DNA of 64,000 nucleotides, taken from NCBI GenBank assembly GCA_017934275.1, contig JAGBJT010000042.1, forward strand, positions 1-64,000, in the 5' to 3' direction. This DNA comes from Cardiobacteriaceae bacterium. GTDB taxonomy: Bacteria; Pseudomonadota; Gammaproteobacteria; Cardiobacteriales; Cardiobacteriaceae. Below, piece after piece: positions 51,485 through 55,885 of the stretch (within the stretch, counting starts at the first letter, position 1; each line of letters starts with the position of its first letter). The notes beneath the pieces are model-generated. The model ran no database searches, had not been told where the DNA came from, and saw only the letters and a list, made by a program, of their open reading frames with translations. A program made the translations under genes and the position numbers.

Positions 51485-51521
51485 GTAAGCAGTGTTTCAT
51501 AACAATTTCACCACCATTAGT

Positions 51522-51538
51522 ACCTTGAATTATAAGGT
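51522..51538. promoter_or_regulatory. Inverted repeat over the ribosome-binding site of the DUF3990 gene
   Basis: ACCTT (51522-51526) and AAGGT (51534-51538) form an inverted repeat with a 7-bp centre. The right arm contains the AAGGTG Shine-Dalgarno of the DUF3990 gene. It could be an operator or hide the ribosome-binding site in the mRNA. Confidence 0.35.
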
Positions 51539-51544
51539 GTTTTT

Positions 51545-52027
51545 ATGTTTTTATATCACGGCAGTAATGTGGCGGTTAAAAATCCGCAATTACTCAAAAT
51601 CTATCGAGCGTTGGATTTTGGGAGTGGTTTTTATACGACCAGTGATATAAATCAAGCCCAAAAATGGGCGGAACGAACTGCGTTAAGATTACAACAAAAA
51701 CAATCGTTTGTAACGGTTTATGAAGTTGATGAGCAGAAAATGAATGAACTTCGTTTTTTGCAATTTGATACGCCCAATCTCGAATGGTTGCATTTTGTGG
51801 TGCAAAATAGAACAGGGCAATCAAGAGAAGATAAATGGGATATTGTCAAAGGTCCTGTGGCTGATGACCAAACTATTGTCGTGATTGATTTATATATTGA
51901 CGGTATGTTTAGCGAAGAAGACGCAATCAATCGCTTGTTACCGCAAAAATTAAAAGACCAATATACTTTCAAAACGAATAGAGCAATCGATTTACTGTAT
52001 TGCGTTGAGGTACTGTTGTATGAATAA
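51545..52027 (+). CDS. DUF3990 protein, ADP-ribosyltransferase-like, probable toxin
   Basis: The 160-residue protein matches the DUF3990 family: an opening FLYHGSNVAVKNPQLLKIYRALDFGSGFYTTSDINQAQKWAERTALR, in which YHGS and GFYTT resemble the NAD-binding motifs of ART-fold enzymes, then a mid part ending EWLHFVVQNR and DIVKGPVADDQT. I infer an ADP-ribosyltransferase-like activity; this is not shown. It is followed by two small genes with 8-bp and 4-bp overlaps, the layout of a toxin-antitoxin cassette. No secretion signal is present. Confidence 0.75.
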   Translation: MFLYHGSNVAVKNPQLLKIYRALDFGSGFYTTSDINQAQKWAERTALRLQQKQSFVTVYEVDEQKMNELRFLQFDTPNLEWLHFVVQNRTGQSREDKWDIVKGPVADDQTIVVIDLYIDGMFSEEDAINRLLPQKLKDQYTFKTNRAIDLLYCVEVLLYE

Positions 52028-52268
52028 AATATCTCATTTTGTTTTGGATTATTATAATAAGTCGGTCGTGAGCGAAATTATGAAAAAATATGCTATGAAC
52101 GAAATGGAAGCGGCAAATGCGTTTTTAACCTCACAGACTCACGCAATGTTGGAAAATGCGGATATGGCAATGTGGGAATTTTCGGCTTATGCGATTTTGG
52201 ATATTTGGGAAAGTGAACAAATTACAGGCGACCCAAGAAATTCGATACATTTGCGGAGCGAATTATGA
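52020..52268 (+). CDS. Small partner protein in the DUF3990 module
   Basis: This is an 82-residue, Met- and Ala-rich, mainly helical protein (SHFVLDYYNKSVVSEIMKKYAMNEMEAANAFLTSQTHAMLENADMAMWEFSAYAILDIWE). ATG 52020 overlaps the end of the DUF3990 gene by 8 bp. It resembles small DUF3791-like partners found beside DUF3990 genes, with an acidic helix pattern, and is a candidate antitoxin. I am not sure of the family. Confidence 0.6.
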   Translation: MNKISHFVLDYYNKSVVSEIMKKYAMNEMEAANAFLTSQTHAMLENADMAMWEFSAYAILDIWESEQITGDPRNSIHLRSEL

Positions 52269-52480
52269 GTAAAGAAATGGCGTTTTTTTTGTTTTTAATC
52301 GAACGATATGCAGAACAATACAATCGCCCCACTGGTGAAGTGTGGCAAGAATGGACGGAAAAAGGAATTTTGCAAAAAATTTATAACAATTATTTTCAAT
52401 ATCACCAAGAACGCTTGCAAAACGCTTTTGATGATATTAACGCTTTGCTTAAAACAGGAAAACATTTGGTTTATGCATGA
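52265..52480 (+). CDS. DUF3791-like small protein in the DUF3990 module
   Basis: The 71-residue protein has the DUF3791 pattern: KEMAFFLFLIERYAEQYNRPTGEVWQEWTEKGILQKIYNNYFQYHQERLQNAFDDINALL. The start overlaps the stop of the previous gene by 4 bp (ATGA). It is a candidate antitoxin or chaperone for the ART-like protein. It lacks an obvious DNA-binding motif. Confidence 0.65.
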   Translation: MSKEMAFFLFLIERYAEQYNRPTGEVWQEWTEKGILQKIYNNYFQYHQERLQNAFDDINALLKTGKHLVYA

Positions 52481-52614
52481 ATGAATTTTTATAGATTACC
52501 GTATTTTTGCTATCTTGTGTTTCAACTTTAGCTTTGGCGGTTATATAGTTATTACGCATAAAAGTAACAAAATATGGTGCAATATTTTTTTCAACTCAAT
52601 TGGAGCGTAAATTT

Positions 52615-55600
52615 ATGGCATACAATGTTAAATTTAAGGAAAAATCAAGAGCAGCAAGGCTTTCCCCCCCCCTTAATAATAATTATTATCAATTAACCTC
52701 TTTTCATTTGGGCAAGCTAAACCTCCTGCTATCAATAATACTCTTTACTGTTGCAATGCCTGCTAATGCGGAATACACAGAACAAGAACAACAAACAGCC
52801 GATGCACTTCTTTCTAAATTACAAGAATATAATGAAAATGCAAACGCAGGAAGTTTGCTCTATATCATTGACGAACGCTTGCAAAGCGAAGGCTTCTTAA
52901 AAAACGATGAAAATAATTCATATGTCAAGTCAAATGATTTGTTGTGCAAGGAACATAGTGGTTCTTTTAAGTGCGGTCTATGGCAGTCGTTTCCAGCTGG
53001 TAGCAAAAGTTCTGTTGTAGGTATCTCTAACAATATAATTGGTAGTAACTCTGCAGCGGTTGGTTTTGAAAATACTGTAAATGGGCATGAGGCAAGCGCA
53101 TTTGGAAGTAATAATACTGTAAATGGGCATGAGGCAAGCGCATTTGGTATTTATAACACCGCAAAAATACAAAAATCCAGCGCATTTGGTTATGACAACC
53201 GTGCATCACAACAATATTCATCGGCATTTGGAGCAGAAAATAGAGCATCTGGTCAGTTTTCATCAGCGTTTGGTTATGACAACACTACAAAAAACACACA
53301 AGCAAATGCATTTGGTAGCCAAAACACCGCCAAGGGAGAATATTCTGCTGCCGTAGGTTATAACAACACCGCGCATAACAATAGTTCATACGCATTCGGT
53401 GCTAACAATAACACCTATGCTGATAATTCATCCGCATTTGGTTTGCAAAATACTACTAGTGGTTTAACATCAAGTGCTTTTGGTTCTTATAACAACGCCA
53501 AGGGCGAAAGGTCATCTGCATTTGGTTATAGCAATGAAGCAAGTAAAGAAAGCTCATCTGCATTCGGTTATCAAAATACTGCAACTGGGAATAGTGCATC
53601 TGCCTTCGGTTATAAGAACAAAGTATCTTCTGACTACTCATCTGCATTCGGGTATAACAATACGATAGATACTCGTGAAGCAGTAGCAGTTGGTATGGAT
53701 AACACTGCAAGTGCTCGCTATTCATCGGTATTTGGTGTAAATAGCAAAGCTCTTGTTGATTATGGTACTGCCATAGGTTATAAATCCTACGCTGATCGCC
53801 CCGCAGATGTTCGAGGTTATTCACCTGCCAAAGATGATGTCTCAACAGAAAACAATTACATATGGAAAGCAACTTCGGCAGCATTAGCAATCGGCGACAC
53901 TCACGATACAAACAAGATTACTCGTCAAATCACAGGTGTTGCGGCTGGTAGTGAAGATACTGACGCGGTGAATGTGGCACAGTTAAAAGAAGCGGTTAAA
54001 AGTGGTGCTAATTTCTCACCGATTAAGGTTTCAGATGATTCTGGTACTGATTTTACCGTAGATAGTGCAGGCAGCCTGACAATTGCAGGTGGCAGTAATA
54101 TCAACACAACTGCTGATAATAGTAACACATTAACGGTATCGCTAAATAACAATGTTGATTTAGGCAGTTCAGGCAGCTTACAAGTTGGTGATACAACAAT
54201 TAACAACAACGGCAAAATTACAGGCTTAACCGCAGGTTCGGCTGCTGGTGAAGCGGTGGAATATAGTCAACTTTCAGAATTGCAAACGAAGATTGCAACA
54301 CTTAATACAGCAATTCAAAATAACGGTAGTTATTTTCCATTTACCATTAAAGATAATTCAGGCAATGACTTTAAAGTCGCCAGTGGTGGTACGGTGAATA
54401 TTGAAGGTAGTGGCATCATTACAACCAAAGCAGATAATGGTACACTTACCATTAGTGCGGATTTGTCGGATTACGCAACCGAGCAATTTGTAACAGGTCA
54501 AGGCTATCAAACTTCTAATCAAGTTAATACAGCAATTACCAATCGTTTGAACGGTTATGCCACTCAAACATGGGTGCAACAACAAGGTTATCTAACCTCT
54601 ACTGACAAAGCCGATTTACAACAACAAATTGCTGATAATGCAGTAGATTTAACCGATTACGCCAAAACGGCTGATGTGAATAATACGCTTAGACAATACA
54701 GCACAACTTCGCAAACGCAAAAATGGGTGCAAGACCAAGGTTATTTGACGGCTGATGATAGAGCGGAATTAGAAGCCAAAATCAAGGCAGGCAACATCGA
54801 CTTATCCGATTATGCCAAAACCGAAGATGTTGATAACAAACTTACTGAATACACCAAAACTGCCGATTTGGGCAATGTTATTGCCGATGAAACCGCTAAA
54901 TTAGGCTTGGTTAATCAACAAGATTTGGATAATCAACTGAATGATTATGCCACTATCGCCAAAGTGGAAGCCGATTATCTAAAAAAAGCCGAGTTAAGCG
55001 GTGCGATTGAAGATAAAGCCAAAGACATGGAATTAGTGGATCAAACTTCGTTAAATGATCAGTTGAAAAACCTGCAACTACAAAGTGGTAACTATGTTCC
55101 GATTTCGGTGGGCGGTGATACTGGCGAATTTGAAATTCCTAACGGTGGCAGAGCAAATTTTGTTGGCGATGGCACGAATATCAGCACAGTAGCAGACGGT
55201 GATACCGTAACTATTAACTTGAATAAAGATATTCAAATCGATAGTGTGAATGCAGGTGGTACAGTGGTTAATCAAGACGGCGTTGCGTTAAATTCTGGCG
55301 TTGCTCTTACCAATCAAGGTTTGAATAACGGCGGACAAGTGATTAGCAATGTCGCTCCAGGTGTGCGTCCAACTGATGCGGTGAATGTAGGGCAATTGAA
55401 TAGCGCAATGGCTTCTATGAGCGGTCAATTGTCTTCTCGGATTGAGACCGTCGATAAAAACGCCAATGCTGGAACGGCTTCCGCATTAGCAGCCAGCACA
55501 ATGCCCGTTGCAAATGCTCCTGGTGAAGCAATGATGGGATTTACTGGCGGCACTTACCGTGGACAACAAGGTTATGCAATCGGTTATTCACAAAACTCAC

Positions 55601-55692
55601 AAAGCGGTCGCATCGTATTCCGAGCCACTGGTTCAGGTAATTCCAAAGGACATTACGGAGCTTCTGTAGGTGTCGGTGTGAAATTGTGGTAG
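52615..55692 (+). CDS. YadA-type trimeric autotransporter adhesin, phase variable
   Basis: The 1025-residue surface adhesin has a long signal region ending LLLSIILFTVAMPANAEYT. A head of about 17 YadA-like ~14-residue repeats follows (SSAFGYDNRASQQY, SSAFGAENRASGQF and so on, about residues 130-400), then a neck (DAVNVAQLKEAV near 450). Next comes a stalk with repeats of the type YAKTADVNNTLRQY and QGYLTADDRAELEAKI, and a second neck (PTDAVNVGQLNSAM). A C-terminal YadA anchor (last ~90 residues) ends in VGVGVKLW. ATG 52615 has a GGAG site; a TTG at 52600 overlaps it. A C9 tract at codons 17-20 should switch the gene on and off. Confidence 0.93.
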   Translation: MAYNVKFKEKSRAARLSPPLNNNYYQLTSFHLGKLNLLLSIILFTVAMPANAEYTEQEQQTADALLSKLQEYNENANAGSLLYIIDERLQSEGFLKNDENNSYVKSNDLLCKEHSGSFKCGLWQSFPAGSKSSVVGISNNIIGSNSAAVGFENTVNGHEASAFGSNNTVNGHEASAFGIYNTAKIQKSSAFGYDNRASQQYSSAFGAENRASGQFSSAFGYDNTTKNTQANAFGSQNTAKGEYSAAVGYNNTAHNNSSYAFGANNNTYADNSSAFGLQNTTSGLTSSAFGSYNNAKGERSSAFGYSNEASKESSSAFGYQNTATGNSASAFGYKNKVSSDYSSAFGYNNTIDTREAVAVGMDNTASARYSSVFGVNSKALVDYGTAIGYKSYADRPADVRGYSPAKDDVSTENNYIWKATSAALAIGDTHDTNKITRQITGVAAGSEDTDAVNVAQLKEAVKSGANFSPIKVSDDSGTDFTVDSAGSLTIAGGSNINTTADNSNTLTVSLNNNVDLGSSGSLQVGDTTINNNGKITGLTAGSAAGEAVEYSQLSELQTKIATLNTAIQNNGSYFPFTIKDNSGNDFKVASGGTVNIEGSGIITTKADNGTLTISADLSDYATEQFVTGQGYQTSNQVNTAITNRLNGYATQTWVQQQGYLTSTDKADLQQQIADNAVDLTDYAKTADVNNTLRQYSTTSQTQKWVQDQGYLTADDRAELEAKIKAGNIDLSDYAKTEDVDNKLTEYTKTADLGNVIADETAKLGLVNQQDLDNQLNDYATIAKVEADYLKKAELSGAIEDKAKDMELVDQTSLNDQLKNLQLQSGNYVPISVGGDTGEFEIPNGGRANFVGDGTNISTVADGDTVTINLNKDIQIDSVNAGGTVVNQDGVALNSGVALTNQGLNNGGQVISNVAPGVRPTDAVNVGQLNSAMASMSGQLSSRIETVDKNANAGTASALAASTMPVANAPGEAMMGFTGGTYRGQQGYAIGYSQNSQSGRIVFRATGSGNSKGHYGASVGVGVKLW
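52664..52672 (+). repeat. C9 homopolymer at the start of the adhesin gene
   Basis: Nine consecutive C lie inside the codons for Ser-Pro-Pro-Leu, about 50 bp after the start. With C9 the frame is open. With one more C the next codon becomes TAA directly after the tract; with one fewer, translation stops after a few codons. This is the classic layout of slipped-strand phase variation. Confidence 0.88.
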
Positions 55693-55732
55693 AGGATATC
55701 GTATATAATTATTTTTATATTTATATTTACTA

Positions 55733-55764
55733 AAAAAAATCGCCATCTTTTGGCGGTTTTTTTT
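55733..55764 (+). terminator. Terminator after the adhesin gene
   Basis: CGCCA (55741-55745) and TGGCG (55751-55755) flanked by A8 and T8 runs that extend the stem. Confidence 0.85.
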
Positions 55765-55885
55765 ACTGTTATTTTATCCACACCGCGTAATTATTTTTGA
55801 TAGTTCAATATTATTAAAAACGCATAGAAATATAAATATATAAGATACAGTATATTTTTTTCGCAACATTGAAATAGGTTAAAGC

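Follow-up and report, generated by a model that had tools for sequence, protein, structure and literature searches.

The adhesin gene and its cytosine tract

The window, by which we mean the whole stretch of 64,000 nucleotides analysed here, carries an open reading frame that runs from ATG 52615, or alternatively from TTG 52600, to 55692. Judging from its domains, the 1,025-aa product is a YadA-type trimeric autotransporter, for which trimer formation and adhesion are predicted: head repeats (PF05658, 82.7 bits) and coiled stalk (PF05662, 70.4 bits) both score above their cut-offs, as does the membrane anchor. The solved structures that it matches are CbpF, Hia, UspA1 and an invasin (1p9h), which we take to be YadA. 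The features of the locus are as follows.

52574..52627, + strand: alternative start codons of frame 1 (ATG 52574, GTG 52577 and ATG 52625), open to the tract and, while the tract is C9, not in the frame of the adhesin
52600..52606, + strand: Shine-Dalgarno-like TTGGAGC, its GGAG nine bases 5' of ATG 52615
52615..55692, + strand: predicted YadA-type trimeric autotransporter adhesin, 1,025 aa (open reading frame; head, stalk and anchor scoring above the Pfam cut-offs)
52615..52770, + strand: probable long signal peptide, codons 1-52 (heuristic, from the translation; cleavage after ANA placed by eye)
52664..52672, + strand: C9 homopolymer in adhesin codons 17-20, proposed slippage switch
52708..52710, + strand: TTG at codon 32, in frame between the tract and the hydrophobic core, perhaps a weak start (from sequence; no ribosome-binding site evident)
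55504..55677, + strand: YadA membrane anchor, aa 964-1021 (PF03895, 43.2 bits against a cut-off of 22.7)
55731..55765, + strand: terminator-like hairpin with T tail, 3' of the adhesin gene (consensus match only)

The hydrophobic core of the signal peptide covers approximately codons 37-48, and the cytosine tract lies upstream of it, inside the long n-region. An identical CAATTGGAGC also stands ahead of the PilY1 starts in loci L063 and L116. The hairpin belongs to a consensus that found 5 matches against 2.9 expected in shuffled sequence, and Rfam has no match in the window or in the two cas9 loci described below. Immediately 5' of the adhesin, at 51545-52027, lies a gene for a DUF3990 protein (166 bits); most of the segment that contains it (51508-52375) has no counterpart at the aligned locus of the sister genome.

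Nine cytosines at 52664-52672 form the sole run of C or G longer than six in the 64-kb window. They take in the second and third bases of codon 17, all of codons 18 and 19 and the first base of codon 20, within the codons for S-P-P-L. Runs of four C occur 53 times in the window, runs of five 11 times and runs of six twice, lengths seven and eight are not represented, and there is one run of nine. The preliminary description had located a nine-C run in adhesin codons 17-20 with the gene in its ON frame, and both statements hold, the intact 1,025-aa reading frame being in frame with the tract. The homopolymer is above the usual slippage length and comes early in the coding sequence, and from the main start an early stop follows in both the +1 and the -1 frame, the start codons of frame 1 calling for caution. 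With one C gained, translation from ATG 52615 would end after 20 aa at a TAA immediately 3' of the tract, as had been claimed; with one C lost, the product from the same start would be 26 aa long. What needs qualification is the simple equation of an added C with OFF, since the frame-1 ATGs may let some adhesin expression through.

Long C and G tracts in the genome and its relatives

The genome from which the window comes (1.40 Mb in 63 contigs, 72.7% complete) contains 13 C/G tracts of at least 8 nt, with lengths of 8-19, where Markov models predict 0.8-3.9; eleven are at least 9 nt long (0.1-0.8 expected) and seven at least 10 nt (0.02-0.15 expected). Run lengths are bimodal: in 232 kb of targeted loci, length seven is missing between the 6 runs of six and the 17 of eight to nineteen, and since these loci partly overlap and were chosen for their tracts, the upper mode is enriched by choice, which does not apply to the gap at seven. 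The C9 tract is thus part of a separate long class of C/G runs. Homopolymers of at least 8 nt are reported to be predominantly variable in resequenced meningococcal genomes (PMC5084427).

Five of the 13 tracts, that of the adhesin included, are located within the first 20 codons of genes for exported proteins (binomial P 2.6e-5 to 7e-4, under the rough assumption of one gene per kb). Apart from the adhesin, the tracts assigned to genes are:

PilY1-family gene (L063): C13, within the first 20 codons
PilY1-family gene (L066): C14, within the first 20 codons, out of frame as assembled
PilY1-family gene (L073): C9, within the first 20 codons, out of frame as assembled
CAP-domain protein (L071): C19, within the first 20 codons
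PilY1 gene (L070): C/G tract deeper within the gene
GT25 glycosyltransferase (L072): C/G tract inside the gene

The other six lie between genes, close to the ends of contigs or in frames left without an assignment. The PilY1 genes are PilY1/PilC-like, matching Pfam T4P_PilY1 and, below the cut-off, NCBIfam T4_PilC_Neiss. In L066 and L073, the tracts are followed by intact open reading frames of 1,685 and 1,576 codons, respectively, and neither frame offers an ATG, a GTG or a TTG 5' of its tract. Such a mixture of in-frame and out-of-frame copies with long intact reading frames suggests a contingency set, allowing for a possible assembly error in any single tract. A mutS match is present in the genome, and no defect of mismatch repair is therefore implied.

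A sister species of the same genus is represented by a genome that we take to be the Cardiobacteriaceae MAG RGIG4814 (JAFUTP010000063.1; G001 below, the window genome being G000), from roe-deer reticulum, and that has 11 C/G tracts of at least 8 nt. Related genes of the two species bear tracts of unequal length, single-base lengths being liable to error in assemblies of the short-read type:

PilY1: C10 in the sister species, C13 in the window genome (82% identical)
CAP-domain protein: C9 and C19 (54% identical)
GT25: G9 and G10 (90% identical)
second PilY1: C12 and C14 (50% identical)

At the adhesin site itself the flanks align at 90% identity, and the adhesin is absent from the sister genome save for a C-terminal stub; its place is taken by other genes, one of which looks by eye like a DNA-cytosine methylase. 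The stub (L106:9279-9563, on contig C33) aligns to the window from 55535 onward and is fused to a SecF-like N-terminus, recognised by eye. The junction is a shared FTGGT-coding stretch, and either a real deletion or an assembly join is possible.

Trimeric autotransporter matches of some kind occur in 17 of 57 genomes, the window genome included. A search for relatives of the adhesin in other genomes gave 19 stretches that fit a pattern, none of which was confirmed, and no C tract was seen in the other trimeric autotransporters of the genus that were read. Runs of eight C are found in all 11 other family genomes, with 2 to 34 in each. We have largely set aside these family-wide tracts as support: their surroundings were read in eight of the 11 genomes (G001-G007 and G009, leaving out G008, G010 and G011), where many of those examined lie in frame inside housekeeping-looking genes, as would be expected of C-rich coding sequence. 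One of them, in another genus of Cardiobacteriaceae (L176, G003:C1:1600349), is a C11 close to the start of a reading frame of 607 codons that resembles a type III DNA methyltransferase by eye (DPPY) and is possibly a phase-variable modification gene.

A/T tracts of the genus and the cas9 gene

The genus also carries long A/T runs. Those of at least 12 nt, which are actually 13-20 nt long, number 39 in the window genome and 27 in the sister genome, against 0-2 in each of ten other family genomes, a contrast confounded by base composition. The figure of 39 was rejected as evidence by itself, being close to the 25-33 that Markov models predict. The lengths are nevertheless bimodal: targeted loci, some of which overlap, contain four runs of 9, one of 10, none of 11-12 and 47 of 13-19. 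Fourteen of the 17 tracts that are reciprocal best hits between the two species are unequal in length, a few of these pairs being only 39-48% identical and perhaps paralogous.

Most of the tracts stand just upstream of genes for exported proteins, such as PilY1 proteins, autotransporters (some others of the genus among them), binding proteins and a TonB-dependent receptor. In the window genome, 34 of the 39 lie within 400 nt of an ATG-initiated reading frame, and 24 of these 34 frames look exported, compared with 12 of 46 in the window (Fisher P 1e-4); in the sister genome the fraction is 15 of 25 (P 0.01). These fractions omit the 5 of 39 and 2 of 27 tracts with no ATG-initiated frame of 90 aa within 400 nt, and the exported calls come from a crude signal-peptide heuristic that also flags surely non-exported proteins (Cas9 and, by eye, an apparent RsmA/KsgA). 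Where two frames flanked one tract, the longer was chosen if it was 1.8 times the other; tract L218 was given a doubtful frame, its real neighbour being an out-of-frame PilY1 gene. Three PilY1 genes apparently have an A/T tract upstream together with a C tract in their first codons (L066 with L218, L073 with L241 and L114 with L245).

One A/T-tract gene in each species is an intact cas9:

L259:2230-2247 (window genome, contig C47): A tract of 18 nt, 79 nt before the cas9 ATG
L259:2327-5887 (window genome, contig C47): cas9, intact, 1,187 aa (TIGR01865, 708 bits, cut-off 100)
L260:7477-7492 (sister genome, contig C32): A tract of 16 nt, 78 nt before the cas9 ATG
L260:3832-7398 (sister genome, contig C32): cas9, intact, 1,189 aa (TIGR01865, 692 bits, cut-off 100)

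Read on the gene strand, the tract is thus A18 in one species and A16 in the other, and cas9 is a candidate phase-variable gene. No CRISPR-like repeat array was found within 11.2 kb (window genome) and 9.5 kb (sister genome) around it, nor were cas1 or cas2 noticed by eye among the reading frames of the same segments.

Probable phase variation, rival readings and known systems

We consider it probable (about 0.8) that the C9 tract serves the adhesin as a contingency switch of the slipped-strand kind, slippage itself being inferred from the genomic context. DNA polymerase would slip on the tract at replication, so that one C is gained or lost. From ATG 52615, just one length class would keep the 1,025-aa adhesin in frame; in the other two, translation would stop before the core of the signal peptide and no adhesin would be exported. 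The population would then be a mix of adhesin-bearing and adhesin-free cells at any time, and sibling tracts would switch the PilY1/PilC pilus-tip proteins and the CAP-domain secreted protein likewise. Phase variation of the adhesin, as originally predicted, draws support from its genomic context, because the 13 long tracts are in excess and form a class of their own, five have a 5' placement, two of the PilY1 genes are out of frame and lengths differ in the sister species. Against the switch stand the single assembly from which the tract is known at C9, the place of C9 among the shortest tracts of the set and the lack of a C tract in the other trimeric autotransporters that were read in the genus.

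Alternative starts could soften the switch, and the reading that survives best beside it, itself a variant of slippage rather than a contradiction of it, has three levels of expression: high from the main ATG at C9, low from the frame-1 ATGs once one C is gained, and fully off in the third frame. Frame 1 reaches the tract without a stop and includes the ATGs 52574 and 52625, which by arithmetic would lead into the adhesin frame if the tract were one C longer; frame 2 offers no start codon ahead of the tract. Alternative starts near variable repeats are also reported to be common in meningococci (19 of 55; PMC5084427). We nevertheless regard such grading as rather unlikely, as no ribosome-binding site is evident by eye before the frame-1 ATGs, and an open frame with a stray ATG is common by chance.

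Less likely still is a tract of little effect, whether a random C run or one bypassed by translation that starts 3' of it at TTG 52708. C9 is short for the set, and a compact classical signal peptide would follow this TTG, from which adhesin expression could leak. Fitted to the window at orders 1-3, however, the Markov models predict only 0.005-0.029 C runs of at least 9 nt per 64 kb, and with the codon usage of the window the chance that S-P-P-L codons make a C9 is approximately 5e-4. Furthermore, ATG 52615 has a good Shine-Dalgarno-like site where none is evident by eye before the TTG, and the same arrangement recurs in four further genes of the genome. Transcriptional or ribosomal slippage, which would give every cell a constant mix of frames and buffer the level of adhesin instead of switching it, is very improbable: RNA polymerase slippage can arise on long homopolymers, but it is better known for A/T runs, and neither form explains the tract-length differences between species or the out-of-frame genomic copies.

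The preliminary description holds that poly-C tracts of this length slip at high frequency in host-adapted bacteria, and its premise of host adaptation fits the origin of the sister genome. Host association of the window species is inferred from that MAG together with surveys of rumen epithelium: Cardiobacteriaceae made up 5% of the epithelium-associated bacteria in one of them (PMC5411454), their status as a core family not being confirmed by a meta-analysis (PMC7915655). The switch would show as a surface phenotype and may be of use in colonising the forestomach wall. Phase variation is known best from human pathogens, and the literature searched, as far as its accessible text goes, yielded no case from Cardiobacteriaceae. 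A phase-variable set of adhesin and pilus-tip proteins would make the lineage a tractable case of adhesion switching by wall-attached commensals. More tentatively, the C tracts in 5' coding positions and the dozens of A/T tracts of 13-20 nt, that of the intact cas9 included, might constitute a two-class phasome peculiar to this ruminant genus. If so, phage immunity, or whatever other role Cas9 has, would itself be phase-variable; it is this wider tract set, with the cas9 tract foremost, that most deserves attention.

The closest known case is Hag/MID of Moraxella catarrhalis, a trimeric autotransporter with a guanine tract near the start of its reading frame, where slippage likewise costs the frame (PMC1931440). 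Hag has about 2,000 residues, whereas the window adhesin has 1,025 and its tract consists of coding-strand cytosines; Moraxella also belongs to a different bacterial order. A similar logic is seen in PilC1 of Neisseria, at the tip of the type IV pilus, where length changes of a coding poly-G truncate a surface adhesin (PMC5231331); the window gene is a trimeric autotransporter and not a PilC, however, so this likeness belongs to the paralogous setting. The adhesin SabA of Helicobacter pylori combines a promoter poly-T (13-19 nt in clones) with a repeat early in its coding sequence (PMC2715451), and the PilY1 genes that seem to have tracts of both classes would by analogy be possible double switches. 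SabA differs in that its coding repeat is CT and it is no trimeric autotransporter, and the window adhesin has no A/T run longer than 8 anywhere near. On/off control of adhesins by slippage is already well known in other host-dwelling bacteria; here it is very probably met, at one of dozens of such tracts, in a little-studied genus.
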